The notes under the pieces were generated by a model. That model saw only the letters and a list, made by a program, of their open reading frames with translations, was not told where the DNA came from and searched no databases. Both the position numbers and the translations under genes were made by a program. From Rhodocyclaceae bacterium (GTDB lineage Bacteria > Pseudomonadota > Gammaproteobacteria > Burkholderiales > Rhodocyclaceae), in contig JARRBR010000006.1 in the NCBI GenBank assembly GCA_029982755.1, positions 1 through 45,999 of the forward strand: a stretch of 45,999 bases of DNA. The letters are read 5' to 3'. Below, piece after piece: positions 24,886 through 45,998 of the stretch (positions within the stretch are counted from its first letter, which is position 1; every line of letters starts with the position of its first letter).

Positions 24886-25125
24886 GTGCGCAATCTGCTC
24901 ATCGTCATTCTGGTCTTCATCGGCATCTGGTGGGCGCGCGGTGCGCTGCGGCGCTTCAAGGCGCAGGGCGGGCTGCGGCGCAAGGAGGCCAGGCCGGTGT
25001 CGGCCGAACGCATGCTCGAGTGCCGGCACTGCGGCCTGATCGTGCCCGAGTCCGAGGGCGTGCGCGCCGGCGAGGACTTCTATTGCTGCGAGGCCCACCG
25101 CAGTGCCGGGCGGCGCGCTGGCTGA
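24886..25125 (+). CDS. PP0621-type small membrane-anchored Cys-rich protein
   Basis: A 79-residue protein with an N-terminal transmembrane helix (about residues 3-17) and a basic linker. A small zinc-ribbon-like C-terminus has CxxC at C46/C49 and the CC pair C67/C68 followed by H71. It matches the uncharacterised PP0621 family, usually found beside pilSR-type kinase genes. The start is GTG at 24886; no earlier in-frame start is sensible. Its last 23 bases overlap the kinase gene, suggesting coupled translation. Function is unknown; a redox- or metal-sensing accessory to the kinase is conceivable. Confidence 0.78.
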   Translation: MRNLLIVILVFIGIWWARGALRRFKAQGGLRRKEARPVSAERMLECRHCGLIVPESEGVRAGEDFYCCEAHRSAGRRAG

Positions 25126-28116: not shown

Positions 28117-28236
28117 GGGTGAAGCGGGGCGCGGACTTGCGGAGGCGGGACCTCACGCGCCGGTGCTCCCGCGTCCGGGCATGCCTTCCCAGTGATGAAG
28201 CGGGCATTTTTCTCGCCGCCCGGCGGGGCGAGTGAA

Positions 28237-28242
28237 TAGAAT
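28237..28242 (+). promoter_or_regulatory. -10-like element (TAGAAT) with leaderless geometry
   Basis: TAGAAT at 28237-28242 lies six bases before the ATG at 28249, placing the expected transcription start on the start codon. Just upstream, 28212-28232 forms a GC-rich hairpin (CTCGCC...GGCGAG) over the place where a -35 would be. No ribosome-binding site precedes the ATG. Confidence 0.45.
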
Positions 28243-28248
28243 GTCGGC

Positions 28249-29899: not shown

Positions 29900-30529
29900 A
29901 TGGGCAGCAAGATTCGGGGCATGTGGTCTGGGGTGGTTCGTTTCCTGATGCTGGGGGCCGCCGTCGGCGTGCTCGCCGGCTGTGCGTCTTCCTTCCCGTC
30001 GGCGCCGCCCGCCGCGGCCGATGCCGAATACAACTACCTGATCGGCCCGGGTGACACCCTCAACATCGTCGTCTGGCGCAACCCGGAGCTCTCCATGTCG
30101 GTGCCGGTGCGCCCCGACGGCAAGATCACCACACCGCTGGTCGAGGATCTGCCGGCGATCGGCAAGGACTCCACCACGCTGGCGCGCGACATCGAGAAGG
30201 AACTCGCCAAGTTCATCCGCGAGCCGGTGGTCACCGTGATCGTCACCAACTTCGCCGGCCCTTACAGCGAGCAGATCCGCGTGGTCGGCGAGGCCGCAGA
30301 GCCGCGCATCCTGCCCTACACGCAGAAGATGACCCTGCTCGACGTCATGATCGCGGTCGGCGGCCTGACCGAGTTCGCCGACGGCAACGCCGCGAGCATC
30401 CTGCGCACCGGCGAGGGCAACAAGCAGTACAGCGTGCGCATCAAGGATCTGATCAAGCGTGGCGACGTGTCGGCCAACGTCGAGATGCGTCCGGGCGACG
30501 TGCTGATCATCCCGCAGAGCTGGTTCTGA
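29900..30529 (+). CDS. XrtA-system polysaccharide export lipoprotein (Wza/EpsE-like)
   Basis: Outer-membrane/periplasmic export protein, 209 residues. The signal sequence ends in lipobox LAGC with lipidated C28. The polysaccharide export (Poly_export) domain begins YNYLIGPGDTLNIVVWRNPELS, and a SLBB-type beta-grasp domain follows (VVGEAAEPRILPYTQKMTLLDVMIAVGG). It is much shorter than E. coli Wza (379 residues) because extra SLBB domains are lacking, the size of the exosortase-A-linked subfamily. It is the first gene of the operon and is followed by the Wzz-like gene after 82 bases. Confidence 0.9.
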   Translation: MGSKIRGMWSGVVRFLMLGAAVGVLAGCASSFPSAPPAAADAEYNYLIGPGDTLNIVVWRNPELSMSVPVRPDGKITTPLVEDLPAIGKDSTTLARDIEKELAKFIREPVVTVIVTNFAGPYSEQIRVVGEAAEPRILPYTQKMTLLDVMIAVGGLTEFADGNAASILRTGEGNKQYSVRIKDLIKRGDVSANVEMRPGDVLIIPQSWF

Positions 30530-30611
30530 TCCCGGGATCCCGATCCACCCTTCGGGCAGGGCCGGCACCGCGCAGGCGGTGAGGTCCGCCCCGAATCCTG
30601 CGAGCTGATTC

Positions 30612-32156
30612 ATGGAAGAACTCGTATCGCAAATCACCGGCTACCTGCGCGGCATGTGGCGCTTCCGGTGGTGGGGGCTCGCGCTCGCCTGGATCGTCGG
30701 CATCGTCGCCGGTGTCGTGATCTACAAGATGCCCGACAAGTACGAATCGAGCGCGCGCGTTTTCGTGGATACGCAGTCGGTGCTGCGGCCGCTGATGGCG
30801 GGGCTTGCGGTGCAGCCCAACGTCGACCAGCAGATCGCCATGCTCAGCCGCACGCTGATCAGCCGCCCGAACGTCGAGAAGCTGATCACCATGGCCGACC
30901 TCGACCTCGGTGTGAATACGCCCGCGCAGCGCGAGGCGCTGATCACCCAACTGTCCGAGGACCTGCGCATCGGCTCGGCGGACCGCACCAACCTGTTCAC
31001 TCTGTCGTACTCGGACACGCGGCCGGAGAAGGCGCAGCGCGTCGTGCAGTCGCTGCTGTCGCTGTTCGTCGAGTCCGGCCTGGGCAGCAAGCGCCAGGAT
31101 GCGGACGCCGCGCGCCGCTTCATCGAGGAGCAGATCCGCAGCTACGAGCACAAGCTCACCGAGGCCGAGAACCGGGTGAAGGAGTTCCGCCTGCGCAACA
31201 TGGGCTTGCTCGGCGACGGTGCGCGTGACTACGTCGGCCAGATCGGCGCGCTGTCCGAGCAGGTGCAGCAGGCCCGGCTCGAACTGCGCGAAGCGGAGAA
31301 CGCCCGCGACTCCCTGCAGCGCCAGCTGGTCGGCGAGGAGCCGGTGCTGCTGCCGCAGACGCCGTCGGCGTCGGGCGTGTCGATTCCCGAGATCGACGGC
31401 CGCATCGACACCCTCAAGCGCAACCTCGACGAGCTGCTGCTGCGCTACACCGACAAGCATCCCGACGTGGCCGGCACCCGGCGCCTGATCGAGGAGCTCG
31501 AGGCGCAGAAGCTCGAGCAGGTGCAGGCCATGCAGGCTGCGGGAGGCAGCCAGTTCGGCGCGCTCGATTCCAACCCGGTGTACCAGCAGATGAAGCTCGC
31601 CCTGGTGCAGGCCGAGTCGCGCGTGGCCTCGCTGCGGGTGCGCGTGGGCGAGTTCCAGGGGCGCCTCGACCAGCTGCGCGAGCAGGCGCGCATGGTGCCG
31701 CAGGTGGAGGCGGAACTGGCCCAGCTCAACCGCGATTACGCCGTCCACAAGAGCAACTACGACGCCCTGGTCGCGCGCCGCGAGTCGGCCAGCATTGCGG
31801 TGGACATGAACACGCAGACCGGGGTGGCGGACTTCCGCGTCATCGATCCGCCCACGCTGGCGACCAAGCCGTCGGCACCCAACCGCCTCCTGCTGATCCC
31901 GCTGGCGGGCCTGGTCGGCCTTGGCGCCGGCTTCGCGCTGACTTTCCTGATCAGCCAGCTGCGTCCGGCATTCACCGATCCGCGCTCGCTGCGCGAGATC
32001 AGCGGCCTGCCGGTGCTGGGCACGGTCTCCATGCTGCGCACCCGCGAGCGTGCGGCGGCGCGGCGACGCGGTCTGTTCGCCTTCGGGCTCGGTGTCGCGG
32101 CCTATACCGGTGCTTTCGCCGCGGCCGCGGCCGCCTTGCGCTTGATCCAGGGTTAA
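30612..32156 (+). CDS. XrtA-system chain-length determinant protein (Wzz/GumC-like)
   Basis: Polysaccharide co-polymerase of 514 residues. The Wzz domain starts with a transmembrane helix at about residues 20-38. A long periplasmic coiled-coil region (about 170-400) carries alternating acidic and basic heptads, with a GNVR-type segment. A second transmembrane helix is near 420-440, followed by a Pro-rich cytoplasmic piece (LRPAFTDPRSLREISGLPVLG). It lacks the fused C-terminal kinase; the kinase is the separate next gene 13 bases on. Together they should set chain length and couple export to phosphorylation. The start ATG has a poor ribosome-binding site. Confidence 0.9.
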   Translation: MEELVSQITGYLRGMWRFRWWGLALAWIVGIVAGVVIYKMPDKYESSARVFVDTQSVLRPLMAGLAVQPNVDQQIAMLSRTLISRPNVEKLITMADLDLGVNTPAQREALITQLSEDLRIGSADRTNLFTLSYSDTRPEKAQRVVQSLLSLFVESGLGSKRQDADAARRFIEEQIRSYEHKLTEAENRVKEFRLRNMGLLGDGARDYVGQIGALSEQVQQARLELREAENARDSLQRQLVGEEPVLLPQTPSASGVSIPEIDGRIDTLKRNLDELLLRYTDKHPDVAGTRRLIEELEAQKLEQVQAMQAAGGSQFGALDSNPVYQQMKLALVQAESRVASLRVRVGEFQGRLDQLREQARMVPQVEAELAQLNRDYAVHKSNYDALVARRESASIAVDMNTQTGVADFRVIDPPTLATKPSAPNRLLLIPLAGLVGLGAGFALTFLISQLRPAFTDPRSLREISGLPVLGTVSMLRTRERAAARRRGLFAFGLGVAAYTGAFAAAAAALRLIQG

Positions 32157-32169
32157 ACGAGGCATCACG

Positions 32170-33132
32170 ATGAGTCTCATTGAAAAAGCCGCGCAACGCC
32201 TCGACCAGCTCAAGCAGGCCTCGGCCGAGCCCGGGGACGAACAGCTTCAGCCGCAAGCGGTCCGGCCCGCGGCGGGTGCCGGGCACGATGCAGCCGCGGC
32301 GGCGCCCGCGAAAAGCCTCACCCAGTCCTCCGAGGTGCCGCTGACCGTACCCCTGGCGCAGGCGGCGCCGGTGTCGCGCACGGCCTACATCGATCTCGAC
32401 GCCTTGGCGGCCAAAGGCATGGTCACCCCCGACCAGCCGCGCTCGGCGATCGCCGAGGAGTTCCGCGTCATCAAGCGGCCGCTGTTGCGCAATGCCACCG
32501 ACACCAGCGCGGTGCGTATCGAGAACGCCAACCTGATCATGGTCACCAGCGCCCTGCCGGGCGAGGGCAAGACCTTCAGCGCGATCAACCTCGCGATCAG
32601 CATGGCGATGGAACTCGACTACACGGTGCTGCTGGTCGATGCCGACGTGTCGCGGCCCTCGGTGTTCCGTCAGCTCGGCCTGCCGCCCGAGCGCGGGCTG
32701 ATGGACGTGCTGGCCGGCGAGGTCACCGACCTCAGCGAGGTCCTGCTGCGCACCAACATCGAGAAGCTGTCGATCCTGCCCGCCGGCATGCCGCATCAGC
32801 GCGCCACCGAGCTGCTCGCCTCGGAGAACATGAACCGCCTGCTCAAGCAGATCGCCAGCCGCTACTCCGACCGCATCGTCATCTTCGATTCGCCACCGCT
32901 GCTCGTGACCACCGAATCGCGCGTGCTCGCCACCCACATGGGCCAGGTGCTGATCGTGGTCGAGGCCGAGCGCACGACGCACGCCTCGGTCAAGCAGGCG
33001 CTGTCTACGATCGAAAGCTGCCCGATCAAGCTGATGATGCTCAACAAGTCGCGTCAGAGCGGTCCCGGGGCGTATTACGGATATGGATACGGATATGGTT
33101 ATGGTGAAAAGCCGCGCGAAACCGCGGCCTGA
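32170..33132 (+). CDS. XrtA-system tyrosine autokinase (CpsD/Wzc-C-like)
   Basis: BY-kinase of 320 residues. Walker A is TSALPGEGKTFSAIN (about 126-140), Walker A' LLVDADVSRPSVFRQLG (154-170) and Walker B RIVIFDSPPLL. The first 100 residues are a linker rich in Ala, Gln and Pro. The C-terminus has a tyrosine cluster of six Tyr between 302 and 311 alternating with Gly, the expected autophosphorylation tail. That tail is encoded by a short tandem GGATATGGATAC-like repeat overlapping the start of the next gene. It pairs with the preceding chain-length protein. Confidence 0.92.
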   Translation: MSLIEKAAQRLDQLKQASAEPGDEQLQPQAVRPAAGAGHDAAAAAPAKSLTQSSEVPLTVPLAQAAPVSRTAYIDLDALAAKGMVTPDQPRSAIAEEFRVIKRPLLRNATDTSAVRIENANLIMVTSALPGEGKTFSAINLAISMAMELDYTVLLVDADVSRPSVFRQLGLPPERGLMDVLAGEVTDLSEVLLRTNIEKLSILPAGMPHQRATELLASENMNRLLKQIASRYSDRIVIFDSPPLLVTTESRVLATHMGQVLIVVEAERTTHASVKQALSTIESCPIKLMMLNKSRQSGPGAYYGYGYGYGYGEKPRETAA

Positions 33133-34615
33133 AGGGGCTGTTCCGCGCCTAGCTTTGGTCGCCGCGCTGCTGCTGCCGCTCGCCGCGCCGGGAATCGCGC
33201 AGGCGCAGACGGTGCGCATCCAGCCCACCCTCGACACCAGCCTGACCTGGACCGACAACGTCGATACCGACGACGACAACGCGCAGCAGGACTGGATACT
33301 GGAGGTTTCACCCGGGGTGTCGATCAGCCGCGAGTCGGGGCGCTTCAGCGGTGCGCTCGACATGCGCCTGCGCAATACCATTCACGCCGAGCAGACCGAG
33401 GACAACGCGACCTATCTGGCGCTGCAGGGCCAGGGCACGATCGAGGCCATCGAGGATGCCTTCTTCGTCGACCTCGGCGCCTCGATCAGCCGTGACAACC
33501 GCTCCGCGTTCCGCGGCCGCTTCGCCGGCGACACGCTCGACACCGACGAGGAGAACGAGACCCGGCTATTCTACGTCGGCCCGCGCTTCGCCTTCCGTTT
33601 CGGCGAGAGCGGGCTGGGCAACATCGGCTACCAGCAGCGCTGGCTGAGCGGCGGTGACCAGGCCCTGGGCGACCGGACGACCGGCACCTGGAACGTCGGC
33701 GTGGCCGATCCGGTCGCACTGCGCCTGTTCGGCTGGGGGCTGGACTACCAGCGCACCGACACCCAGTACGACGAAGGCGACACCCGCGACCTCATGCAGG
33801 AAATCGGCCGCGCCACCCTGTTCATCAACCTCGACCCGCAGTTCAGGCTGCGCGCGATCGGGGGCTACGAGTCCAACGACTATTCGACGGTGCAGGGCGA
33901 GAGCGGCCCCATCTGGGGCGCCGGCTTCGACTGGTCGCCGACCGAACGTACCTCCATTTCCGCCACCGGCGAGGACCGCATCTTCGGCACCGGCTACGAC
34001 GTCTCCGTGCAGCACCGCATGGCGCGCTCGGTGTGGAGCTTCTCGGCGGTCCGCGACATCACGTCCTCGGTGGACGAGCTCGGCGAGACCCTGCTGCTGA
34101 CGCCGCAGAACATCCTGGACCTCGAGGAGCTTCTCATCACCGACCCGGACGCGGTCGACGATTACCTCGCCGGGCTGACGCCGCTCTTCATCCGCACCAA
34201 CAGCTACTACCTCAGCAAGGCAGTGCGCGCCGCCGTCACCCTGATCGGCGTGCGCAACACGGTCACGGTCGGCGTCGCCCAGACCGACCGCTCGCAACTC
34301 GACACCCTCGGTTTCACCGGGCTGATCGACGACGAGTTCGACACCTACGACCGGGTCAAGTCGCGCGAGGCCTTCGTGGCTTTCGATCACAAGCTGTCCG
34401 GCCTGGCCACCCTCAGCCTCGCGCTGCAGCGTTCGAAGTCGCAGGGCTACGGCGAGGACGACGACGAGACCACGCGCACCGCCTATACCGTCGGCGTGAC
34501 CCGCAGCCTGGGCCCCCGGACCCGCGCCAGCCTCACCTACCGCCACACAAGGTCCGAAGGCAGCGACGCATACACCGAGAACACCATCGTCGCCGCGGTC
34601 GGCATGCGGTTCTGA
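33101..34615 (+). CDS. XrtA-system outer-membrane beta-barrel protein (TIGR03016 type)
   Basis: A 504-residue secreted protein. A signal peptide (about residues 14-36, ending AQAQ) is followed by many alternating short beta strands rich in Asp, Thr, Arg and aromatic residues. The final strand, ending VAAVGMRF, has a terminal Phe, the outer-membrane barrel signature. It is recognised as the barrel of exosortase-A loci, perhaps the outer-membrane passage for the polymer. In-frame ATGs are at 33083, 33095 and 33101, all inside the kinase tail; 33101 leaves the best signal peptide and has a weak GGAT 6 bases upstream. The start is uncertain. Confidence 0.82.
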   Translation: MVKSRAKPRPEGAVPRLALVAALLLPLAAPGIAQAQTVRIQPTLDTSLTWTDNVDTDDDNAQQDWILEVSPGVSISRESGRFSGALDMRLRNTIHAEQTEDNATYLALQGQGTIEAIEDAFFVDLGASISRDNRSAFRGRFAGDTLDTDEENETRLFYVGPRFAFRFGESGLGNIGYQQRWLSGGDQALGDRTTGTWNVGVADPVALRLFGWGLDYQRTDTQYDEGDTRDLMQEIGRATLFINLDPQFRLRAIGGYESNDYSTVQGESGPIWGAGFDWSPTERTSISATGEDRIFGTGYDVSVQHRMARSVWSFSAVRDITSSVDELGETLLLTPQNILDLEELLITDPDAVDDYLAGLTPLFIRTNSYYLSKAVRAAVTLIGVRNTVTVGVAQTDRSQLDTLGFTGLIDDEFDTYDRVKSREAFVAFDHKLSGLATLSLALQRSKSQGYGEDDDETTRTAYTVGVTRSLGPRTRASLTYRHTRSEGSDAYTENTIVAAVGMRF

Positions 34616-34626
34616 GCGGAGCGCCG

Positions 34627-35712
34627 ATGTACGAATCCTTCTTCAAGCTCAGCGGCAAGCCCTTCCAGCTCAATCCCGACCCCGCCTTCTTCTACGGCAG
34701 CCGGGGCCACCGCCGGGCGATGGCCTACCTCGAGTACGGCCTGCACCAGAGCGAGGGCTTCATCGTCATCACCGGCGAGATCGGCGCCGGCAAGACCACG
34801 ATCGTGCGCAGCCTGTTCGAGCAGCTCGACCCCGAGCGCGTCGTCGCCGCCAACATCGTCAGCACCCAGATCGACGCCAGCGACATGCTGCGCCTGGTCG
34901 CGGCCGCGTTCGGCGTTCCCAGCCGCAACCTCGACAAGGCCGGGCTGCTGCTGGCGCTCGAGACCTACCTGGTTTCGGTCGCCGCGGCCGGCAAGCGCGC
35001 GCTGCTGATCGTCGACGAGGCGCAGAACCTCACGCCGGCGGCGGTCGAGGAACTGCGCATGCTGTCCAACTTCCAGCTCGAGGACCACGCCCTGCTGCAG
35101 AGCTTCCTGGTCGGCCAGCCGGAATTCCGCGACATGATGCAGCGCCCCGAGATGCAGCAGCTGCGCCAGCGCGTGATCGCCTCCTACCACCTCGGCCCGC
35201 TCGACGCCCAGGAAACCCGCGGCTACATCGAGCACCGCCTGTCGCGCGTGGGCTGGGCCAGGGACCCCGATTTCGAGCCCGGCGCCTTCACCGCAATCTA
35301 TGGCTACACCGGCGGCATCCCGCGCCGCATCAACACCCTGTGCGACCGGCTGTTGCTGTCCGCCTACCTCGGCGAGCGCCACCTGATCGGCGAGAGCGAC
35401 GTCCGCGAGGTGATCGACGGGCTGAAGGAAGAGTTCGCCCCCGGGCGTGCGCGTCCGCTGCAGGCGCCGCAGCCCGCGGCGGGCGGCGACGCGGAGCTCG
35501 CGCTGCGCCTCGACGCCCTCGCGCTCGAGCGCCTGCGCGTGCCGCCCGAACTCGCCACGCAGGCCGCCGGCCTCGCCGGCAACTACGACCTGCAGCGCAT
35601 CGAGGCCCGCATCGCCGGCCTCGAGCAGTCGCTCTCCGCGACCCTCCAGGTCCTCTCCCAACTACTGCAGGCGGTGCGTCGCGACGCGCCGGCAACGGAC
35701 GAATCCGAATGA
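34627..35712 (+). CDS. XrtA-associated AAA ATPase (ExeA/GspA-like, TIGR03015 type)
   Basis: AAA ATPase of 361 residues. The N-terminus MYESFFKLSGKPFQLNPDPAFFY is the family opening. Walker A is GEIGAGKTT (50-58) and Walker B is ALLIVDEAQNLT, with the arginine-rich GGIPRRINTLCDRLL later. After about residue 270 comes a Pro/Ala linker and a C-terminal coiled segment. It lacks the peptidoglycan-binding domain of ExeA. In exosortase-A loci it follows the barrel gene and probably helps export or assembly. It starts 11 bases after the barrel stop and overlaps wecB by four bases. Confidence 0.88.
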   Translation: MYESFFKLSGKPFQLNPDPAFFYGSRGHRRAMAYLEYGLHQSEGFIVITGEIGAGKTTIVRSLFEQLDPERVVAANIVSTQIDASDMLRLVAAAFGVPSRNLDKAGLLLALETYLVSVAAAGKRALLIVDEAQNLTPAAVEELRMLSNFQLEDHALLQSFLVGQPEFRDMMQRPEMQQLRQRVIASYHLGPLDAQETRGYIEHRLSRVGWARDPDFEPGAFTAIYGYTGGIPRRINTLCDRLLLSAYLGERHLIGESDVREVIDGLKEEFAPGRARPLQAPQPAAGGDAELALRLDALALERLRVPPELATQAAGLAGNYDLQRIEARIAGLEQSLSATLQVLSQLLQAVRRDAPATDESE

Positions 35713-36872
35713 GCACGACACCCGTCAAGCCGGCACCGGTCATCTGCGTCGTCGGCGCGCGCCCCAACTACATGAAGGTCGCGCCCATCATCCGCGCCTT
35801 CGCCGCCCACAATCCGCCGATCCGCACGCTTCTGGTGCACACCGGCCAGCACTACGACCCGGCGATGAAGGACCGCCTGTTCGCCGACCTCGAACTGCCC
35901 GAGCCCGACGTCAACCTCGCCGTCGGTTCCGGCTCGCACGCGGTGCAGACCGCCGAGGTCATGAAGCGCTTCGAGCCGGTCATCGACGAACACGGCGCGC
36001 GCGCGGTGCTGGTGGTGGGCGACGTCAACTCCACGCTCGCCTGCGCCCTGGTCGCCAGCAAGCGCCACATCCCCGTCGTCCATGTGGAGTCCGGCCTGCG
36101 CAGCTACGACCGGCGCATGCCCGAGGAGATCAACCGTGTCCTCACCGACCAGATCTCCGACGTGCTCTACACCACCGAGCGCTCCGCCCACGACAACCTC
36201 GCACGCGAAGGCATCCCCGCCGAGCGCGCGGTCTTCGTCGGCAACGTCATGATCGACAGCCTGCGCGCAAGCCTGCCCAAGGCGGTGCCCGCCGACGTGC
36301 TGCTCGCCGATGCCGGCCTGGATGCGGGCCGCATCGCCGGCGGCTACGGCGTGGTCACCCTGCACCGGCCGTCCAACGTCGATGACCCCGACGTCCTTGG
36401 CCCGATCATCGACGCGCTGCGCAAGCTCGCCGAGCGCCTGCCGCTGGTCGTCGCGCTGCATCCGCGAACCCACGGCAACCTCGAGCGCTTCGGCATGCTC
36501 GGCCGGCTCGACACCCCGGGCTTCCTGATCCTGCCGCCACAGGGCTACCTGGAGATGCTCGGCCTGATGTCGGGCGCGCGCATGGTGCTCACCGACTCCG
36601 GTGGCATCCAGGAGGAAACCACCGCGCTCGGCGTGCCCTGCATCACCATCCGCGAGAACACCGAGCGTCCGATCACCGTGGAGCAGGGCACCAACACCCT
36701 GGTCGGCATCGACCCGCAGGCCATCCTCGCCGCGGCGCGCGGCGTGCTCGCCACCGGCGGTAAGGGCGGGCGCATCCCCGAGCTGTGGGACGGTCGCTGC
36801 GCCGAGCGTATCGCTGCCCACCTGCACGACTGGCTGCTGCGCTTCGAGGCCGGCCCGCCTGCCGGAAGCTGA
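35709..36872 (+). CDS. wecB: UDP-N-acetylglucosamine 2-epimerase (non-hydrolysing)
   Basis: Interconverts UDP-GlcNAc and UDP-ManNAc, giving ManNAc-type precursors to the exopolysaccharide. It has 387 residues against about 376 in E. coli. Motifs are VVGARPNYMKVAPI at the N-terminus, HTGQHYDPAM, HVESGLRSYDRRMPEEINR and LTDSGGIQEE near 290-300. The ATG at 35709 overlaps the preceding stop (ATGA). No UDP-ManNAc dehydrogenase (wecC) is next to it, so ManNAc itself, or a uronate formed by an enzyme encoded elsewhere, may be the building block. Confidence 0.94.
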   Translation: MSTTPVKPAPVICVVGARPNYMKVAPIIRAFAAHNPPIRTLLVHTGQHYDPAMKDRLFADLELPEPDVNLAVGSGSHAVQTAEVMKRFEPVIDEHGARAVLVVGDVNSTLACALVASKRHIPVVHVESGLRSYDRRMPEEINRVLTDQISDVLYTTERSAHDNLAREGIPAERAVFVGNVMIDSLRASLPKAVPADVLLADAGLDAGRIAGGYGVVTLHRPSNVDDPDVLGPIIDALRKLAERLPLVVALHPRTHGNLERFGMLGRLDTPGFLILPPQGYLEMLGLMSGARMVLTDSGGIQEETTALGVPCITIRENTERPITVEQGTNTLVGIDPQAILAAARGVLATGGKGGRIPELWDGRCAERIAAHLHDWLLRFEAGPPAGS

Positions 36873-36873
36873 C

Positions 36874-37713
36874 ATGGACACCCGCATCACCAACGCCTTC
36901 ACCTGCGACGTCGAGGACTACTTCCAGGTCTCCGCGCTGGCGCCGCACTTCCCGCGCAGCCAGTGGGACAGCGTGCCGTGCCGGGTCGAGGGCAACGTCG
37001 AGCGCGTGCTCGAACTGCTCGACGGTCATGGCGCGCGCGGAACCTTCTTCACCCTGGGCTGGATCGCCGAGCGCTTCCCGCAGCTCGTCCGCCGCATCGC
37101 CGATGCCGGCCACGAGGTCGCCAGCCACGGCTACGGCCACCAGCGCGCGAGCGACCTGACGCCAGAGGCCTTCCGCGCCGACATCAGGCTCGCCAAGGCC
37201 ATCCTCGAGGACATCACCGGCCGGCCCGTCACCGGCTACCGCGCGCCCAGCTTCTCGATCGGCACCGCCAACCTGTGGGCGCACGACTGCATCGCAGAGG
37301 CAGGCTACCGCTACAGCTCCAGCGTGTATCCGGTGCGCCACGATCACTACGGCATTCCGGATGCGCCGCGCTTCCCGTGGCGGCTGCCCAATGGCCTGGT
37401 CGAGGTGCCGATCACCACCCTGCATTTGTTCGGACGCAACTGGCCGGCGGGCGGCGGCGGCTTCTTCCGCCTGCTGCCCTATTCGCTGTCGCGCTGGCAG
37501 ATCGCGCGTTTCAACGCCCGGGACAAGCGCCCCGCGATCTTCTACTTCCATCCCTGGGAGCTCGACCCCGACCAACCGCGCGTGACCGACGCCACGACAA
37601 AAACCCGATTCAGGCATTACATTAACCTTGAGCGTACGGCGGCGCGGCTCGACCGGCTGCTCGCCGACTTCTCCTGGGGACGTGCAGACGAGGTTTTCTG
37701 CGACGCCGCCTGA
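36874..37713 (+). CDS. XrtA-system polysaccharide deacetylase (DUF3473 type)
   Basis: NodB-homology carbohydrate esterase of 279 residues. Motif 1 is CDVEDYFQ (11-18) with the catalytic and metal aspartates, and motif 2 is SHGYGHQ with metal ligands H85 and H89. Motif 3 is GYRAPSFSIG, and FYFHPWELDPDQP is the late segment. The C-terminal DUF3473 domain marks the exosortase-A subgroup. No signal peptide is seen, so it likely acts on cytoplasmic or membrane-facing intermediates, removing N-acetyl groups from HexNAc residues. It starts one base after wecB. Confidence 0.92.
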   Translation: MDTRITNAFTCDVEDYFQVSALAPHFPRSQWDSVPCRVEGNVERVLELLDGHGARGTFFTLGWIAERFPQLVRRIADAGHEVASHGYGHQRASDLTPEAFRADIRLAKAILEDITGRPVTGYRAPSFSIGTANLWAHDCIAEAGYRYSSSVYPVRHDHYGIPDAPRFPWRLPNGLVEVPITTLHLFGRNWPAGGGGFFRLLPYSLSRWQIARFNARDKRPAIFYFHPWELDPDQPRVTDATTKTRFRHYINLERTAARLDRLLADFSWGRADEVFCDAA

Positions 37714-37728
37714 ACCGACAGGACCCGG

Positions 37729-38787
37729 ATGCCCAGCATGGACCGATTGCCGATCAGTGTCAGCATGCTTACCCAATCGCAACGCGAGCGCTGGGACGCC
37801 TTCGTTCACAGCTGCCCGCAGGCCACCTTCTTCCATCTCTCGGCCTGGCAGGGGATCCTGGAAGAGATCTTCGACCACCGCAGCTTCTACCTTTACGCCG
37901 AGCGCGCGGGCGAGATCGTCGCCGTGCTGCCGCTCGCCGAGGTCCGCAGCCGCCTGTTCGGCCACGCACTGACCTCGCTGCCCTTCTGCGTCTATGGCGG
38001 CATCGCGGCCGACGTCGATGCCGGCGCCGACGTCGCGCACGAACTCGAATCCAAGGCCGAGACGCTCGCCCGCGCGCTGGGCGTGCAGTACCTCGAGTAC
38101 CGCAACCTGCGCCCCCGCCACCCGGACTGGCCGCGGCAGGACCTCTACGTCAGCTTCCGCAAGGAGATCCTCCCGGAGGTCGAGGCCAACATGCTCGCCA
38201 TCCCGCGCAAGCAGCGCGCCATGGTGCGCAAGGGCATCAAGAACGGTCTCATGAGCGAGATCGACGAGAGCGTCGACCGCTTCTTCGCCCTCTACGCCGA
38301 CAACGTGCTGCGCCACGGCACCCCGGCGCTGCCAAAGAAGTACTTCCAGCGCCTCAAGGATGTCTTCGGCGAGGCCTGCGAGGTCCTCACCGTGGTCGGC
38401 CCCGACGACAAGCCGCTGTCCAGCGTGCTGAGCTTCTACTTCCGCGACGAGGTCCTGCCGTACTACGCCGGCGACGACGTGGCCGCGCGCGAGCTCGCCG
38501 CCAACGATTTCAAGTACTGGGAGCTGATGCGCCGCGCCTGCGAGCGCGGCTGCAAGGTCTTCGACTACGGCCGCAGCAAGGTCGGCACCGGCCCCTACGA
38601 CTTCAAGCGCAACTGGGGCTTCGAGCCGCAGCCGCTGTCCTACGAGTACCGCCTGTACAAATGCGACGGGGTTCCGCAGCACAACCCGGCGAACCCGAAG
38701 TACCGGACCTTCATTTCGCTGTGGAAGCGCCTGCCGATCGGGGTGGCAAACCGGCTGGGGCCCTACATCGTGCGCAACCTGGGGTAG
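37729..38787 (+). CDS. XrtA-system FemAB-like acyl/aminoacyl transferase
   Basis: GNAT-fold protein of 352 residues of the FemAB/peptidoglycan-bridge family, in the group found in PEP-CTERM/exosortase-A loci. Features are FFHLSAWQGILEEIFDHRSFYLYAE near the N-terminus, the second GNAT half at about 190-320, and FDYGRSKVGTGPYDFKRNWGFEPQPLSYEY. It probably adds an amino-acyl or acyl group to an aminosugar, which would fit the deacetylase encoded just upstream making free amines. This is an inference. Starts at 37729 and 37738 are both possible; 37729 follows an AGGA ribosome-binding site. Confidence 0.88.
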   Translation: MPSMDRLPISVSMLTQSQRERWDAFVHSCPQATFFHLSAWQGILEEIFDHRSFYLYAERAGEIVAVLPLAEVRSRLFGHALTSLPFCVYGGIAADVDAGADVAHELESKAETLARALGVQYLEYRNLRPRHPDWPRQDLYVSFRKEILPEVEANMLAIPRKQRAMVRKGIKNGLMSEIDESVDRFFALYADNVLRHGTPALPKKYFQRLKDVFGEACEVLTVVGPDDKPLSSVLSFYFRDEVLPYYAGDDVAARELAANDFKYWELMRRACERGCKVFDYGRSKVGTGPYDFKRNWGFEPQPLSYEYRLYKCDGVPQHNPANPKYRTFISLWKRLPIGVANRLGPYIVRNLG

Positions 38788-38791
38788 GGCG

Positions 38792-40156
38792 GTGACGCAG
38801 GATAAAGCGGGGCTCCCGCCGGTGCTTTATCTGACGCACCGCATTCCTTATCCGCCCAACAAGGGGGACAAGGTCCGCTCCTTCAACATCCTGCGCCAGC
38901 TCGCACGCACCCACCGCGTCTGGCTCGGCACCTTCGTCGACCACCCCGACGACCAGCGCCACATTCCCGCGCTTGCCCAGTGGTGCGCACAGACCTGCGT
39001 GATCCCGATCGAGCCCGGCATCCGCCGCCTCGCCAGCCTGCACGGCCTGCTGCGCGGGGAGGCGCTCAGCCTGCCGTACTATCGCAGCCCGCGCCTGTCC
39101 GACTGGGTGGAGCGCAACGTGGCCGAGCACGGCATTAGGGCCGCGGTGGCATTCTCCGGGCCGATGGCGCAATACCTCGACGTCCCCGGGCTCGCGCGCC
39201 GCATCATCGACTTCTGCGACGTCGACTCCGCCAAGTGGACGCAGTACGCCGCCGAGCACCGCTGGCCGATGTCCTGGCTCTACCGCCGCGAAGGCGCGCG
39301 CCTGCTCGATTTCGAGCGCGCAGCCGCCGCCCGCGCCGACGCCAGCCTGTTCGTGACCGCGGCCGAGGCCGAACTCTTCCGCCGCGCCGCACCCGAAGCC
39401 TCGAGCCGGATCGGCGTCATGCAGAACGGTGTCGATGCCGATTTCTTCTCGCCCGCGCATGGCGGCGAATCGCCCTATCCGGTGGGTGGCCCGGTCATCG
39501 TCTTCAGCGGCGCCATGGACTACTGGCCCAACGTCGATGCGGTCGGGTGGTTCGCGACCGAACTCCTGCCGCGCATCCGCCAGCAGGTGCCCGGCGCGCG
39601 CTTCTGGATCGTCGGCATGAATCCGGCCCCCGCCGTGCAGGCGCTGGCGGGCGAGGGCATCGTCGTCACCGGCACGGTGCCCGACGTGCGCCCCTACATC
39701 GCCCATGCCGACGTGGTCGTCGCCCCGCTGCGAATCGCGCGCGGGATCCAGAACAAGGTGCTCGAGGCAATGGCCATGGCGCGCCCGGTGGTCGTCTCGG
39801 CCGGCTCCGCCGCCGGGCTCGCCGCCCGCCCCGGGCAGGACTGCGAGATCGCCCACGATGGCGACGACACCGTCCGTCATGTCATTCAGCTCCTGCACGA
39901 CCCCGCACGCCGCGATGCCATGGGCGCTGCCGCGCGCACCTGCGTGATGGAAAACTACAGCTGGCAGGCCCACCTCGCCCAACTCGACGAGCTTCTCACC
40001 GTTGAGTCAGTCCCGTCGGGAGCAGTCCCGGTGGGAACGGTTCCTGTGGGCGCCGCCGTGGGAGCGGGCTTGCCCGCGAATACGGCCTCCGAGCAGCCTC
40101 TTTCGCGGGCAAGCCCGCTCCCACGGAACCCGCTTTCCTCCCGATCGCCGCGCTGA
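38792..40156 (+). CDS. XrtA-system glycosyltransferase (TIGR03087 type) with repeat-derived C-terminal tail
   Basis: GT-B fold (GT4-like) transferase of 454 residues. The N-domain opens with LYLTHRIPYPPNKGDKVRSF. The C-domain has FSGAMDYWPNVDAV and the nucleotide-sugar region APLRIARGIQNKVLEAMAMARPVV. The fold ends near residue 405 (AQLDELLTVES). The last about 48 residues are encoded by three degenerate 15-base repeats (VPSGA, VPVGT, VPVGA) and then by an inverted REP pair (40058-40124), so they are not part of the family. The start is GTG at 38792, four bases after the preceding stop. Confidence 0.88.
   Translation: MTQDKAGLPPVLYLTHRIPYPPNKGDKVRSFNILRQLARTHRVWLGTFVDHPDDQRHIPALAQWCAQTCVIPIEPGIRRLASLHGLLRGEALSLPYYRSPRLSDWVERNVAEHGIRAAVAFSGPMAQYLDVPGLARRIIDFCDVDSAKWTQYAAEHRWPMSWLYRREGARLLDFERAAAARADASLFVTAAEAELFRRAAPEASSRIGVMQNGVDADFFSPAHGGESPYPVGGPVIVFSGAMDYWPNVDAVGWFATELLPRIRQQVPGARFWIVGMNPAPAVQALAGEGIVVTGTVPDVRPYIAHADVVVAPLRIARGIQNKVLEAMAMARPVVVSAGSAAGLAARPGQDCEIAHDGDDTVRHVIQLLHDPARRDAMGAAARTCVMENYSWQAHLAQLDELLTVESVPSGAVPVGTVPVGAAVGAGLPANTASEQPLSRASPLPRNPLSSRSPR
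40010..40054 (+). repeat. Three degenerate 15-base tandem repeats in the glycosyltransferase tail
   Basis: Units at 40010-40024, 40025-40039 and 40040-40054 follow the pattern GTCCCGGTGGGAACG and encode VPSGA, VPVGT and VPVGA in frame. They run directly into the REP pair at 40058 and share its GTGGGA core, so they may be decayed REP ends. Confidence 0.65.
40058..40124. repeat. Perfect inverted pair of REP-like units inside a coding region
   Basis: The unit GTGGGAGCGGGCTTGCCCGC plus GAA (40058-40080) and its exact reverse complement (40102-40124) are separated by 21 bases. This is the best-preserved example of the REP family in the window. It lies within the open frame of the glycosyltransferase upstream of xrtA. 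As RNA it would fold into a stable hairpin 41 bases before the xrtA start. Confidence 0.88.
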
Positions 40157-40164
40157 CGCACGCC

Positions 40165-41685
40165 ATGCCCTTCAATTCCCGCGCCTTCTCCACCGTCGCG
40201 CTCGCACTCGCGCTCACCTTTCTTTGGGTGCTCGGCTGGTACTGGCAGACGGCGCAGGAGATCGCCGGCATCTGGTGGCGCTCCGACACCTTCGCCCACG
40301 GTCTCGTTGTGCTCCCGGCCTTCGCCTGGCTGGTCTGGGATGCCCGCGAGCGCATCGGGGAACTGCAGCCGCAGCCGGTGGGCTGGATGGCGCTGCCCAT
40401 TCTCGCCGCCGGCTTGTTGTGGATGCTCGGCGGCATGGTCAGCGTTGCCGCGGCCCAGCACTTCGCGCTGTTCGCCATGCTGGTGTCGGCCTTCGTCGGC
40501 GTGCTCGGCTGGGGTCTGAGCCGAATGCTGCTGTTCCCGCTCGCCTTCCTGTTCTTCGGGGTGCCGATCGGCGAGTTCATGCTGCCCACGCTCATGCATT
40601 ACACCGCCGAATTCACCGTCTGGGCGCTGCGCCTCTCGGGCGTGCCGGTGTATCAGGAAGGCCTGCACTTCATCGTGCCCAACGGCCGGTGGTCGGTCGT
40701 CGAGGCCTGCAGCGGCATCCGCTATCTCATTGCCTCGCTGATGGTGGGCGCGCTCTATGCCTACCTCAACTACACGAGCCTGAAGCGCCGGCTGCTGTTC
40801 ATGCTGGTCGCGCTGGCCGCGCCGATCGTCGCCAACTGGCTGCGTGCCTACATGATCGTCATGCTGGGCTACCTGTCCGACAACGAGATCGCCGCCGGTG
40901 TCGATCACATTCTGTACGGCTGGGTGTTCTTCGGCATCGTCATCTTCCTGATGTTCTGGGTCGGTAGTCGCTGGCACGAGGGGCGCGAGCCTGTGCCACC
41001 GGCCGGACGGGCTGCGATCCTGTCGGGGGAGAGGCGTGTGCACTGGAGCCGCTTGCTGGCCCTGATGGCGGCGGTCGCGCTCTTTCCGCCCGTTCTCAGG
41101 ATCCTCGATGCGCCAGTGCCGGATTTCCCGGTCACGCTCGCGCCACCTCCGCCGGCAGCCGGCTGGAGCGCTCCGGCGGAGCACCCCTTCGAATACCGTC
41201 CGTTCTACGCCGGCGCGCGTGCCCAGGCGGAGCAGACCTACGTCGCTGCGGGCGATCGGCTCCCGGTCGCGTACTTCGCCGCCTGGTACATCGGCCAGCG
41301 CGAAGGCAGCGAGATGGTCGCCTGGGGGAATGGTCCGGGCTCTGCGGCCATTGGGGGTGTCGGCCTGATGCGCAGCCCGCGTCCGCTCACCATCGGCGAC
41401 CAACCGCTCCGGGAAAACCTGTTGTCCACCAAGCGAGGCGCCGTCCTCACCTGGCACGGATACCGCATGAATGGCCGCATGCTCGCCGGCGACACCGAGG
41501 CAAAGTTGCGCCTGGCGCTTGCCCGCCTCGTGGGGCAGTCGGACGAGTCCGCAGTCTTCGTGCTGAGCACTCCGGTGGCCGGTGACGAGGATCGCGCCCG
41601 CGAACGGCTGCGTGCCTTCCTCGCGGTCCATGGCCCCGCGATGGAGGCCACATTCGAGTCCGTTGTGCGGAGCATCCCGCAATGA
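40165..41685 (+). CDS. xrtA: Exosortase A fused to an EpsI domain
   Basis: Polytopic inner-membrane cysteine transpeptidase that recognises the C-terminal PEP-CTERM signal of exported proteins. The 506-residue protein has about eight hydrophobic segments to residue 270. The catalytic residues are visible: C182 in VEACSGIRYL, R227 in ANWLRAY, and H248 in VDHILYGWVFFG. A soluble periplasmic EpsI domain follows from about 290 to the end (WSAPAEHPFEYRPFYAGA and later VLTWHGYRMNGRMLAGD). The fusion is usual for the XrtA class. No PEP-CTERM substrate is in the window. The ATG at 40165 is nine bases after the glycosyltransferase stop, and the stop overlaps the next gene (ATGA). Confidence 0.94.
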   Translation: MPFNSRAFSTVALALALTFLWVLGWYWQTAQEIAGIWWRSDTFAHGLVVLPAFAWLVWDARERIGELQPQPVGWMALPILAAGLLWMLGGMVSVAAAQHFALFAMLVSAFVGVLGWGLSRMLLFPLAFLFFGVPIGEFMLPTLMHYTAEFTVWALRLSGVPVYQEGLHFIVPNGRWSVVEACSGIRYLIASLMVGALYAYLNYTSLKRRLLFMLVALAAPIVANWLRAYMIVMLGYLSDNEIAAGVDHILYGWVFFGIVIFLMFWVGSRWHEGREPVPPAGRAAILSGERRVHWSRLLALMAAVALFPPVLRILDAPVPDFPVTLAPPPPAAGWSAPAEHPFEYRPFYAGARAQAEQTYVAAGDRLPVAYFAAWYIGQREGSEMVAWGNGPGSAAIGGVGLMRSPRPLTIGDQPLRENLLSTKRGAVLTWHGYRMNGRMLAGDTEAKLRLALARLVGQSDESAVFVLSTPVAGDEDRARERLRAFLAVHGPAMEATFESVVRSIPQ

Positions 41686-42842
41686 CGCGGACCACGGGCG
41701 CCTACGCCACGGGGCAGCGCCCGCTAGTCATGCACGTGCTCTACAGCTTCGACGTTGGCGGCCTCGAGAACGGGGTGGTCAATCTGATCAATCACATGCC
41801 GCCCGAGCGTTTCCGTCATGCGGTGGTCGCGCTCACCCAGTGTGTGCCGTCCTTCTGCGCGCGGGTGCGACGCAGCGATGTCGAGTTCATCTCGCTGCAC
41901 AAGCCGCCCGGCCACGGCGTGCGGCTCTTTCCTGCGTTCATCCGGCTGTGCCGTCGCCTGCGCCCGGCGATCGTGCACACCCGCAACCTGGCTGCGCTGG
42001 AGTTCGCCGTGCCGGTCGCGCTGGCGGGCGTCCCGGCGCGGGTGCATGGCGAGCATGGTTGGGATACCGCCGATCCAGGCGGCACGCGACGCAAGTATCA
42101 GTTGCTGCGCCGCGCCTACAGCCCCGTCGTCAGCCGCTACGTCGCCTTGTCGCGACAGATCGAGTCCTATCTGGTCGATCGGGTGGGTATCGCGCCCGGT
42201 CGGGTCGAGCGCATCTGCAACGGCGTCGACACCGTCCGCTTCCGGCCTGCCGCGGCCCGTGAGCCGCTCGCCGGCAGCCCTTTCGACGATCCGGACGCGA
42301 TCATCGTCGGCACCGTCGGCCGGCTGCAGACGGTCAAGGATCAGGTGAACCTCGTTCGCGCGCTCGCCATCGCGCGCGGTCAGGGTAGGGCGGGCGCGCG
42401 CTTGCGCCTGCTCATCGCCGGCGACGGCCCTCAGCGCGCCGAGGTCGAGGCCGAAATCCGTGCCGCCGCCATCGGCGACGTCACCTGGCTCGCCGGCGAG
42501 CGCGGCGACGTGCCCGAGGTGATGCGTGCGCTCGACGTGTTCGCGCTTCCCTCGCAGGCCGAGGGCATCTCCAACACCATCCTCGAGGCCATGGCCAGCG
42601 GCCTGCCGGTGGTCGCGACCGCGGTCGGTGGCAACGCCGAGCTGGTCGCCGAGGGCGAGACCGGCGCCCTGGTTCCGGCGCAGAATCCCGACGCCATGGC
42701 GCGGGCATTACTGCGCTACACTGAGGATGCTGCATTGCGACAAGCTCATGGTTTAGCCGCTCGCAAGCGGGTGGAGCAGAATTTCAGCATCGACGGCATG
42801 GTCGAGCGCTACGCCGCGCTGTATGAAGATTTGCTCAAGTGA
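41682..42842 (+). CDS. XrtA-system glycosyltransferase (TIGR03088 type, GT4)
   Basis: GT-B glycosyltransferase of 386 residues. The N-domain motif VMHVLYSFDVGGLENGVVNLI is followed by HGEHGWDTADPGGTRRKY. The C-domain has GTVGRLQTVKDQVNLVRA and the EX7E-like donor site ALPSQAEGISNTILEAMASGLPVVAT. The ATG overlaps the xrtA stop by four bases. This is the second sugar transferase of the locus. The acceptor and sugar are unknown, but UDP-ManNAc/GlcNAc derivatives made by WecB are candidates. Confidence 0.92.
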   Translation: MTRTTGAYATGQRPLVMHVLYSFDVGGLENGVVNLINHMPPERFRHAVVALTQCVPSFCARVRRSDVEFISLHKPPGHGVRLFPAFIRLCRRLRPAIVHTRNLAALEFAVPVALAGVPARVHGEHGWDTADPGGTRRKYQLLRRAYSPVVSRYVALSRQIESYLVDRVGIAPGRVERICNGVDTVRFRPAAAREPLAGSPFDDPDAIIVGTVGRLQTVKDQVNLVRALAIARGQGRAGARLRLLIAGDGPQRAEVEAEIRAAAIGDVTWLAGERGDVPEVMRALDVFALPSQAEGISNTILEAMASGLPVVATAVGGNAELVAEGETGALVPAQNPDAMARALLRYTEDAALRQAHGLAARKRVEQNFSIDGMVERYAALYEDLLK

Positions 42843-42864
42843 ACGCATGTAAAGGACCCTGATC

Positions 42865-44799
42865 ATGTGTGGCATCGCCGGCCTCTTCGACACCCGCGGC
42901 AAGCGCGACTTCGACCGCGCGCTGATGCAGCGCATGAACGACGTCCAGCACCACCGCGGCCCGGACGAGGGCGGCTACCACTTCGAGCCCGGCGTCGCGC
43001 TCGCCCACCGCCGGCTCTCTATCATCGACCTCGCCACCGGCCAGCAGCCGCTGTTCAACGAGGACGGCTCGGTGGCCGTGGTCTTCAACGGCGAGATCTA
43101 CAACTTCCAGGAACTCGTGCCCGAGCTCGAGGCGCTCGGCCACGTCTTCCACACCCGCAGCGACACCGAGGTCATCGTCCATGCCTGGGAGGCCTGGGGC
43201 GAGGACTGCGTGCAGCGCTTCCGCGGCATGTTCGCCTTCGCGCTGCACGACCGCAACCGCGACACCCTGTTCATGGCGCGCGACCGCCTCGCGGTCAAGC
43301 CGATGTTCTACGCGCTGCTGGCCGACGGCACGCTGGCCTTCGGTTCCGAGCTCAAGGTGCTGATGCAGCACCCCGACCTCGATCGCCGCATCGACCCGCT
43401 CGCCGTGGAGGAGTACTTCGCGTTGGGCTACGTCGCCGAACCGCGCACGATCTTCCTCGGCGCCCGGAAGCTCGGCCCCGGCGAATCGCTGTGCATCCGC
43501 CGCGGCCAGCCCGTCCCCGAACCCCGGCAGTACTGGGACGTGCGCTTCACTCTCGACAACCCCATCAGCCTCGAAGACGCCACCGCCGAGCTCGTCGAGC
43601 GCCTGCGCGAATCCGTGCGCCTGCGCATGATCGCCGAGGTGCCGTTGGGCGCCTTCCTGTCCGGCGGTGTGGATTCCAGTGCGGTCGTCGCCACCATGGC
43701 GGGCCTGTCCGCCGAGCCGGTCAACACCTGCTCCATCGCCTTCGACGACCCCCAGTTCAACGAATCCGAATTCGCACAGAAGGTCGCCGACCGCTACCGC
43801 ACCAATCACTTCGTCGAGACGGTCAAGTCCGACGATTTCGACCTCATCGACACGCTGGCCGCGCTCTACGACGAGCCCTACGCCGACAGCTCCGCCATCC
43901 CCACCTACCGCGTGTGCCAGCTCGCGCGCAAGAAGGTCACTGTGGCGCTGTCCGGCGATGGCGGGGACGAGAGCTTCGGCGGCTATCGGCGCTACCGCAT
44001 GCATCTGATGGAAGAGAAGATGCGCTCGGCCCTGCCGCTGGGCCTGCGTCAGCCGGTGTTCGGTTTGCTTGGGCGGGTCTATCCGAAGGCCGACTGGGCG
44101 CCGCGCGTGCTTCGTGCCAAGACCACCTTCCAGGCCATGGCGCGGGACGCCACCGAGGCCTACTTCCACAGCGTCTCCATCCTGCGCGGCGACATGCGCG
44201 CCAAGCTCTTCAGTGCGGATTTTCGCGGCAAGCTGGGTGGCTACGACGCGCTCGACGTTTTCCGCCGCCATGCCGCGAACGCCGGCACCGACGATCCGCT
44301 GGCGCTGATCCAGTACCTCGACCTCAAGACCTACCTGGTCGGCGACATCAACACCAAGGTGGACCGCGCCAGCATGGCCCACTCGCTGGAAGTGCGCGAA
44401 CCGCTGATGGACCACAAGCTGGTCGAGTGGCTTGCGACGCTGCCCTCCGGCCTCAAGATCCAGGGCAACGAAGGCAAGTACCTGTTCAAGAAGGCGATGG
44501 AGCCCTTCCTGCCCGACGACGTGCTCTACCGCGCGAAGATGGGATTCTCGGTGCCGCTCGCGCGCTGGTTCCGCGGCCCGCTCAAGCAGCGCGTACGGGA
44601 CGCCGTGCTGGGCGAGACCCTCGCCGCCACCGGGATCTTCAACCGCGAGTGCCTGCAGCACCTGGTCGACGCCCACCAGTCCGGCGCCCGCGACTACAGC
44701 GCGCCGCTGTGGACCTTGTTGATGTTCGAGGCCTTTGTGCGGAACATCGGGGGCAGTTCGTTCGCGCAAGGGCAATCTCCCGCCGAGTGTGTGGTCTGA
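42865..44799 (+). CDS. XrtA-system amidotransferase (asparagine synthase-like)
   Basis: Class II glutamine amidotransferase, 644 residues. The nucleophile is C2 in MCGIAGLFDT. The GATase domain runs to about residue 210 (RGPDEGGYHF, FNGEIYNF). The synthetase domain has the PP-loop SGGVDSS near residue 267 and a late KVDRASMAHSLEVREP segment. In exosortase-A loci this protein is thought to amidate carboxyl groups of uronate sugars; true asparagine synthesis is the alternative. It is the last gene of the operon, and an IS element begins 8 bases after its stop. Confidence 0.92.
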   Translation: MCGIAGLFDTRGKRDFDRALMQRMNDVQHHRGPDEGGYHFEPGVALAHRRLSIIDLATGQQPLFNEDGSVAVVFNGEIYNFQELVPELEALGHVFHTRSDTEVIVHAWEAWGEDCVQRFRGMFAFALHDRNRDTLFMARDRLAVKPMFYALLADGTLAFGSELKVLMQHPDLDRRIDPLAVEEYFALGYVAEPRTIFLGARKLGPGESLCIRRGQPVPEPRQYWDVRFTLDNPISLEDATAELVERLRESVRLRMIAEVPLGAFLSGGVDSSAVVATMAGLSAEPVNTCSIAFDDPQFNESEFAQKVADRYRTNHFVETVKSDDFDLIDTLAALYDEPYADSSAIPTYRVCQLARKKVTVALSGDGGDESFGGYRRYRMHLMEEKMRSALPLGLRQPVFGLLGRVYPKADWAPRVLRAKTTFQAMARDATEAYFHSVSILRGDMRAKLFSADFRGKLGGYDALDVFRRHAANAGTDDPLALIQYLDLKTYLVGDINTKVDRASMAHSLEVREPLMDHKLVEWLATLPSGLKIQGNEGKYLFKKAMEPFLPDDVLYRAKMGFSVPLARWFRGPLKQRVRDAVLGETLAATGIFNRECLQHLVDAHQSGARDYSAPLWTLLMFEAFVRNIGGSSFAQGQSPAECVV

Positions 44800-44807
44800 A
44801 TTACTTC

Positions 44808-44825
44808 AGGGCGCCTCGAAAAACC
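44808..44825 (+). repeat. IS left inverted repeat
   Basis: The terminal repeat begins AGGGCGCCTCGAA and pairs with 45981-45998 with two mismatches. It starts eight bases after the amidotransferase stop. Confidence 0.75.
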
Positions 44826-44911
44826 TCTGCCTCGCGCACCCTTGGTAAAATCACGACGTCCTGAACCCCTGCAGCCTGCACCGATGAAACCGCGTAGCGC
44901 TATTAACGTCG

Positions 44912-45832: not shown

Positions 45833-45980
45833 CGCCCGAAATGGGCCGAATCGCCGATGCCTGGGGCGATTCGAGGCGAAAACGGGGCAACCCCGCCGAG
45901 AAACGCGGTGGTTTGCCAGAGAAATTGGGTCGAATTCGGTCGCGGTCATCATTGCGCGGCGGGATTTACTGAAAACCTCG

Positions 45981-45998
45981 GGTTATTCGAGGTGCCCT
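45981..45998 (-). repeat. IS right inverted repeat
   Basis: The reverse strand reads AGGGCACCTCGAATAACC, matching the left end with two mismatches. The window ends one base later. Confidence 0.7.

Follow-up and report, generated by a model that had tools for sequence, protein, structure and literature searches.

A Thauera XrtA/PEP-CTERM exopolysaccharide locus that breaks off at an insertion element, with a proposed N-aminoacyl-hexosaminuronamide in the exported glycan

Gene content and order of the cluster

The stretch of DNA analysed here (the window) is the whole of contig JARRBR010000006.1 (C95; 45,999 bases) in a draft genome of a Rhodocyclaceae bacterium (GCA_029982755.1; 3,236,988 bases in 180 contigs, 86.21% complete), and it carries an exopolysaccharide (EPS) cluster that includes the exosortase XrtA. 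By sequence relationship the host is a member of the genus Thauera: of the 13 loci that best match the amidotransferase of the cluster (87-94% identity), 12 are from Thauera. Gene calls were judged by the curated NCBIfam cut-off of each expected model. Twelve consecutive genes on the plus strand (29900-44799) each score above that cut-off and all twelve reading frames are intact, which bears out the description, in an earlier note on this DNA, of a twelve-gene XrtA exopolysaccharide core running in one direction.

The cluster opens with a Wza-type export protein (TIGR03027; 29900..30529; 240.1 bits, cut-off 180), a Wzz-type chain length determinant (TIGR03007; 30612..32156; 630.3 bits, cut-off 278.85) and a tyrosine autokinase (TIGR03018; 32170..33132; 289.8 bits, cut-off 230.65). 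These are followed by an outer-membrane protein (TIGR03016; 33155..34615; 332.2 bits, cut-off 90.85) and an AAA ATPase (TIGR03015; 34627..35712; 424.4 bits, cut-off 324.5). Where the TIGR03016 gene begins is uncertain (33083-33155), with ATG codons at 33083-33101 whose use would make it overlap the kinase gene. Next come a WecB-like UDP-GlcNAc 2-epimerase (TIGR00236; 35709..36872; 290.5 bits, cut-off 210.15), a polysaccharide deacetylase with a DUF3473 domain (TIGR03006; 36874..37713; 448.8 bits, cut-off 276.2; also recognized by Pfam) and a FemAB-like transferase (TIGR03019; 37729..38787; 516.4 bits, cut-off 260.35). The glycosyltransferase stp1 (TIGR03087; 38792..40156; 553 bits, cut-off 316.65) precedes XrtA, which has a C-terminal EpsI domain (40165..41685; TIGR03109, 337.6 bits, cut-off 208; TIGR02914, 73.8 bits, cut-off 42.8), and the series ends with a second glycosyltransferase, stp2 (TIGR03088; 41682..42842; 533.3 bits, cut-off 409.05), and an AsnB/WbpS-type amidotransferase (TIGR03108; 42865..44799; 1109.9 bits, cut-off 816.9). 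By family membership the twelve comprise export parts of the Wzx/Wzy type, two glycosyltransferases, XrtA, the epimerase and a trio of sugar-modifying enzymes, namely the deacetylase, the FemAB-like protein and the amidotransferase. The starts given earlier for the three modifying genes (36874, 37729 and 42865) are correct. With the start codons adopted here, the many four-base overlaps reported with them shrink to two of the 11 junctions (ATPase/epimerase and XrtA/stp2), the other nine being gaps of 1 to 82 nucleotides (nt).

The position of XrtA shifts within the cluster among relatives. Among 61 related loci with all four genes, the window-like order stp1-XrtA-stp2-amidotransferase is seen in 28. 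Where XrtA of the window lies between stp1 and stp2, 10 of the 61 have an XrtA match after the amidotransferase; these are L030, from Thauera aminoaromatica S2, and L028, L031, L032, L035, L036, L046, L048, L049 and L097.

The three sugar-modifying enzymes

The cluster was compared with 80 named related loci, in which genes were located via open reading frame (ORF) lists or tblastn. The deacetylase and FemAB-like genes adjoin in every one of the 64 loci that hold both (in two of these they overlap by a few bases), and 56 of the 63 loci with about 10 kb upstream of the amidotransferase also hold the deacetylase, the FemAB-like gene and XrtA. No hydrophobic segment above the threshold used was found in the deacetylase, the FemAB-like protein or the amidotransferase; a cytoplasmic site of action, on a precursor, is thus probable for all three.

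Residues D12, D15, H85, H89, R123 and H226 of the deacetylase, and C2 and the S266-S272 loop (SGGxDSS) of the amidotransferase, are conserved in at least 98% of related sequences. We take these to be the catalytic positions of the CE4 and AsnB enzymes, respectively.

The FemAB-like protein was examined through a structure model (pLDDT 90.0, pTM 0.89), most of which aligns with the FemX-type fold of 4ii9_A (Z 26.7, 294 residues, rmsd 3.2). The fold ranking covered 999 aligned chains, with 50 entries listed. The first 11 of these 50 are FemX, FemA and aminoacyl-tRNA-dependent peptide synthases (Z 27.4-25.6) and the next 11 are MprF or aminoacyl-phosphatidylglycerol synthases (Z 19.8-18.0), with other tandem GCN5-related N-acetyltransferases (GNATs) from 17.7; the robust gap is the one after the first eleven entries, 18.0 and 17.7 being tied. 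Domains of the MprF type use aminoacyl-tRNA. Foldseek returned the same leading entries.

Co-occurrence with XrtA

Presence of the genes was also compared across 41 genomes (the genome itself, 24 of the same genus and 16 of the same order). XrtA and the FemAB-like protein (above cut-off) agree in 40 of the 41, as do XrtA and the amidotransferase. One exception (G021, in 540 contigs) has the FemAB-like gene without XrtA, its amidotransferase being in pieces and below the cut-off; the other (G019, 77% complete) has XrtA without the amidotransferase. Fisher values overstate this association, because 20 of the 23 genomes with XrtA belong to one genus and the genes sit in one cluster. Two genomes (G028 and G029) contain exosortase matches that are weaker and do not reach the XrtA cut-off, and they have no FemAB match, so that the link would be to XrtA and not to exosortases generally.

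Contig end and flanking regions

The contig ends in a feature that the earlier note overlooked, an IS5-like element on the plus strand (44808-45998) that is not part of the system. It has inverted ends of 18 nt with 2 mismatches and a transposase gene at 44924-45832 (DDE_Tnp_1, 102.9 bits; DUF772, 81 bits). It begins 9 nt past the amidotransferase stop (44799) and its right end is 1 base from the end of the contig. There is one match to it in the draft (40 of 92 candidate places scored), which fits either a collapsed repeat or a single copy. The element may interrupt the operon in the living strain, or it may be a mere mark of the assembly break. A minus-strand ORF (44903-45952) opposite the transposase was rejected as a gene, having no family match.

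Related loci indicate what commonly lies beyond this point. A third glycosyltransferase, stp3 (TIGR04063), is present in 73 of the 80 loci; in 72 it lies downstream of the amidotransferase, no more than 300 nt away in 54. A TIGR03097 polymerase/ligase occurs in 54 loci, 52 of which have it downstream and on the same strand. When the count is restricted to the 49 loci of at least 21 kb, 48 have stp3 and 43 have TIGR03097. A CapK/PaaK-like ligase is found downstream in 43 of the 80. In the draft, at 86.21% completeness, stp3 was not found. The best match to TIGR03097, on contig C59, scores 34 bits (cut-off 188.1) and was rejected as the polymerase; a search with a relative's protein, which had no positive control of its own and covered the same incomplete draft, was also empty. 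In Thauera phenylacetica (L034, 11951-20062) the downstream region holds genes for a protein without a match, stp3, a UbiG-like methyltransferase, a glycosyltransferase, a CapK/PaaK-like ligase and TIGR03097, along with a second deacetylase-like gene whose match is weak.

Genes directly 5' of the cluster (25103-29658), which are not those of PrsK and PrsR, encode a histidine kinase with a PilS-like membrane domain, a sigma-54 regulator of the NtrC type and a metallo-beta-lactamase protein of the beta-CASP group. The regulator was rejected as PrsR (337.5 bits, cut-off 502.6). A scan for sigma-54 sites ahead of the cluster and ahead of the beta-CASP gene found nothing.

Partner genes on other contigs

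The earlier note had listed the priming transferase, flippase, polymerase, PEP-CTERM substrate and PrsK/R as absent. That holds for the window; for the genome it fails as to the priming transferase, PrsK, PrsR and PEP-CTERM proteins, which are encoded on other contigs, and the picture of a system without its partners is not supported, since most of them are elsewhere in the genome. Contig C177 carries, in order, a TIGR03013 priming transferase (506.2 bits), PrsK (855.4 bits), PrsR (734.2 bits) and PrsT (883.2 bits), all above cut-off, and a TviB-like UDP-sugar 6-dehydrogenase. A second PF02397 gene is on C152. Five PEP-CTERM matches were obtained, none on the contig of the window, and four are above cut-off, on C89, C82, C108 and C30; the protein encoded on C30 is PepA-like (NF033554, 100 bits, cut-off 80). 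Two genes ahead of the latter there is an acyl-CoA ligase-like gene (L026, 8928-10727), which scores low against TIGR03098, the model of the exosortase A-associated ligase (98.9 bits, cut-off 592.35). A sigma-54 scan upstream of the four PEP-CTERM genes gave a good site in L025, a poor one in L026 and none in the other two stretches, one of which was shortened by a contig end.

C177 looks like a separate locus. It was considered as the lost downstream end of the cluster and rejected, because in three relatives of the same genus whose genomes are single contigs (G008, G005 and G017) XrtA and TviB are separated by 0.2 to 1.9 Mb. The TviB-like dehydrogenase beside PrsT is a plausible source of uronate. 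TviB relatives of more than 60% identity are near the amidotransferase in 23 of the 80 loci, and a TviB relative is 40-158 nt past XrtA in 17 of the 18 loci holding both.

A proposed sugar modification and its alternatives

On balance we favour, with appreciable reserve, the reading that a Thauera species here has an XrtA/PEP-CTERM exopolysaccharide locus, broken off at the insertion element that ends the contig, and that an N-aminoacyl-hexosaminuronamide is made for the exported glycan. The three modifying enzymes would fit one small sugar, through deacetylation, aminoacylation and uronate amidation. A UDP-linked N-acetylhexosamine (HexNAc) would be oxidised to the uronate by the TviB-like enzyme of C177 and possibly epimerised by the WecB-like enzyme. 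Modification would take place in the cytoplasm, on the nucleotide sugar or on a lipid-linked oligosaccharide: the deacetylase would expose the 2-amine, the FemAB-like enzyme would attach an amino acid from aminoacyl-tRNA to that amine and the amidotransferase would convert the carboxylate to the amide. The resulting N-aminoacyl-hexosaminuronamide within the glycan could either decorate the polymer or provide an amine acceptor for the joining of PEP-CTERM proteins by XrtA.

Two of these steps had been proposed in the earlier note, which had a deacetylated HexNAc further acylated by the FemAB-like protein and a uronate amidated, to yield a putatively unusual charge pattern. Sequential action of the first two enzymes is plausible in view of the strict adjacency of their genes. 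Amidation is likewise plausible, given the candidate uronate source and the placement of the amidotransferase in TIGR03108, the family to which the uronamide enzymes WbpS and WbqG have been assigned (PMC7468200).

Several observations weigh against the proposed sugar. The dehydrogenase is loosely coupled to the amidotransferase: relatives of at least 60% identity occur in 17 of the 22 genomes with the amidotransferase versus 7 of the 19 others. The WecB-like epimerase is between the ATPase and the deacetylase in 39 of the 56 loci with both neighbours and is missing from that place in 17, and is therefore not obligatory. Zoogloea clusters L045, L046, L048-L051 and L054 have no WecB-like epimerase between these two genes. 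As far as the available part of one report goes, the EPS of strain MZ1T, also a Thauera, consists of rhamnose, galacturonic acid, GlcNAc and N-acetylfucosamine, with no aminoacyl uronamide, by a method that may not detect one (PMC4784049). Finally, Pfam scores the FemAB-like protein higher as Acetyltransf_6 (57.5 bits) than as FemAB (35.3 bits); a coenzyme A (CoA) donor is therefore possible, and a fold does not fix the donor.

The alternative that survives best is the view of the earlier note, that deacetylation, N-acylation and uronate amidation act on the repeating unit and give the polysaccharide its charge and stickiness while XrtA sorts proteins independently; we judge it a serious contender, somewhat short of an even chance. 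Floc formation in MZ1T depends on a deacetylase from the wider cluster there, and partial deacetylation is seen in the EPS of the wild type (PMC4784049), and the Caulobacter holdfast pair HfsH/HfsK is similar, the available text mentioning no exosortase for that pathway (PMC5362036). However, the MZ1T flocculation deacetylase that was tested, Tmz1t_3249, was rejected as the equivalent of the deacetylase in the window, whose counterpart is Tmz1t_3276 (PMC3684757, as far as its accessible part shows). Primers for Tmz1t_3249 and 3244 had no site in the window, in four genome stretches or in 17 related loci. Polymer decoration also leaves the agreement of XrtA with the FemAB-like gene and the amidotransferase unexplained, although co-inheritance of a single cluster, mostly within one genus, would suffice for that.

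A more far-reaching use of the N-aminoacyl sugar, which we put forward tentatively and regard as rather doubtful, is that its free alpha-amine is the nucleophile for XrtA, PEP-CTERM proteins thus being joined covalently to the exopolysaccharide via a sugar-borne amino acid. This explains the same three genes plus their company with XrtA, which they would keep because they build its acceptor. Exosortase-linked relatives of the Porphyromonas enzymes have been speculated to make an unidentified exosortase acceptor (PMC7468200, section 20, in the part available). What is new here beyond that speculation is the fold ranking, the strict adjacency of the deacetylase and FemAB-like genes and the genome-by-genome agreement with XrtA. 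No test of the acceptor idea was found in literature since 2020, in a search that listed 25 of 31 papers and took in neither subscription journals nor preprints.

It is improbable, in our estimate, that the FemAB-like protein is a CoA-dependent acyltransferase and that the carboxylate amidated by the last enzyme of the cluster, the amidotransferase, is not that of a uronate. NodA, which acts after NodB, offers a parallel; Acetyltransf_6 is the top Pfam family of the protein, and the CapK/PaaK-like ligase downstream in related loci could activate an acyl group. The folds of FemX, FemA and the peptide synthases, however, stand at Z 25.6-27.4, against 17.7 or less for other tandem GNATs, and TIGR03108 includes known uronamide enzymes (PMC7468200, in part). 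We also think it unlikely that the cluster is non-functional in this strain through severance of downstream genes from transcription by the element, whose position, along with the failure to find stp3 and TIGR03097 in the draft, would suit such a loss: the twelve frames are intact, the missing genes may be unassembled in a draft that is 86% complete and the element could represent a collapsed repeat where the assembly broke.

Many sludge bacteria that form flocs have XrtA systems, and the cluster is a clear case in which to study what exosortases attach their proteins to, the acceptor having been called an "unidentified compound" in 2020 (PMC7468200, in the part available). Thauera MZ1T, Rubrivivax gelatinosus and Aquincola tertiaricarbonis are amenable to mutation and complementation, and the predicted adduct is chemically definite. 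If the linking role is true, a single chemistry would connect the sorting of PEP-CTERM proteins with sludge flocs and with type IX secretion.

Comparison with known systems

The Caulobacter holdfast resembles the cluster in pairing a polysaccharide deacetylase, HfsH, with a Fem-like transferase, HfsK, for which acylation of the amines freed by HfsH has been proposed (PMC5362036, in its available part). TIGR03019 matches nothing in the genome of Caulobacter vibrioides, which served as a control, so that HfsK, by contrast, is not a close member of the family.

A fuller likeness is seen in the Wbp/Vim pathway of Porphyromonas gingivalis, where a deacetylase, a TIGR03019-related transferase and a WbpS-family amidotransferase accompany a protein-sorting transpeptidase system. 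According to the accessible part of one account, type IX cargo is amide-linked to a 2-N-seryl, 3-N-acetylglucuronamide, with VimE (a putative deacetylase), VimA (a TIGR03019 match) and WbpS named for the steps (PMC7468200). That pathway also needs WbpB/E/D for 3-amino steps and serves the type IX sortase, whereas the sorting enzyme of the window is an exosortase. Such linkage is not universally marked by the three enzymes, since attachment in Porphyromonas can do without WbpS (PMC13086638) and linking sugars without VimA and VimE are possible in Prevotella intermedia (PMC11969387), going by the parts of these reports that were available. The terms exosortase and PEP-CTERM are absent from both.

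Among exosortase systems, known since the first description of PEP-CTERM/EpsH (PMC1569441), Aquincola flocs need epsB2, prsT and pepA or have them active (PMC9850573), both sources being available in part. The closest published likenesses are Tmz1t_3270-3282 of Thauera MZ1T, from the same genus as the window, and psc1 of Rubrivivax gelatinosus, which share the export genes, epimerase, deacetylase, FemAB, glycosyltransferases and amidotransferase and have a membrane protein at the place of XrtA. In the part of PMC3684757 available, the cluster is tabulated gene by gene for both organisms, with export genes, an epsC epimerase, a nodB-like deacetylase, femA, glycosyltransferases, a membrane protein and the asparagine synthase wbpS; a transposon mutant in the amidotransferase was partly planktonic, and uronamide formation was proposed. 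The earlier statement that the chemistry of this polymer family is largely undescribed is fair as to chemistry, but the locus itself was already in print for MZ1T and Rubrivivax. psc1 differs in having capL inside the cluster, the TviB-like gene of the present genome being on another contig. As a gene cluster, the one described here is ordinary, close to that of Thauera MZ1T, and belongs to a known kind of system.

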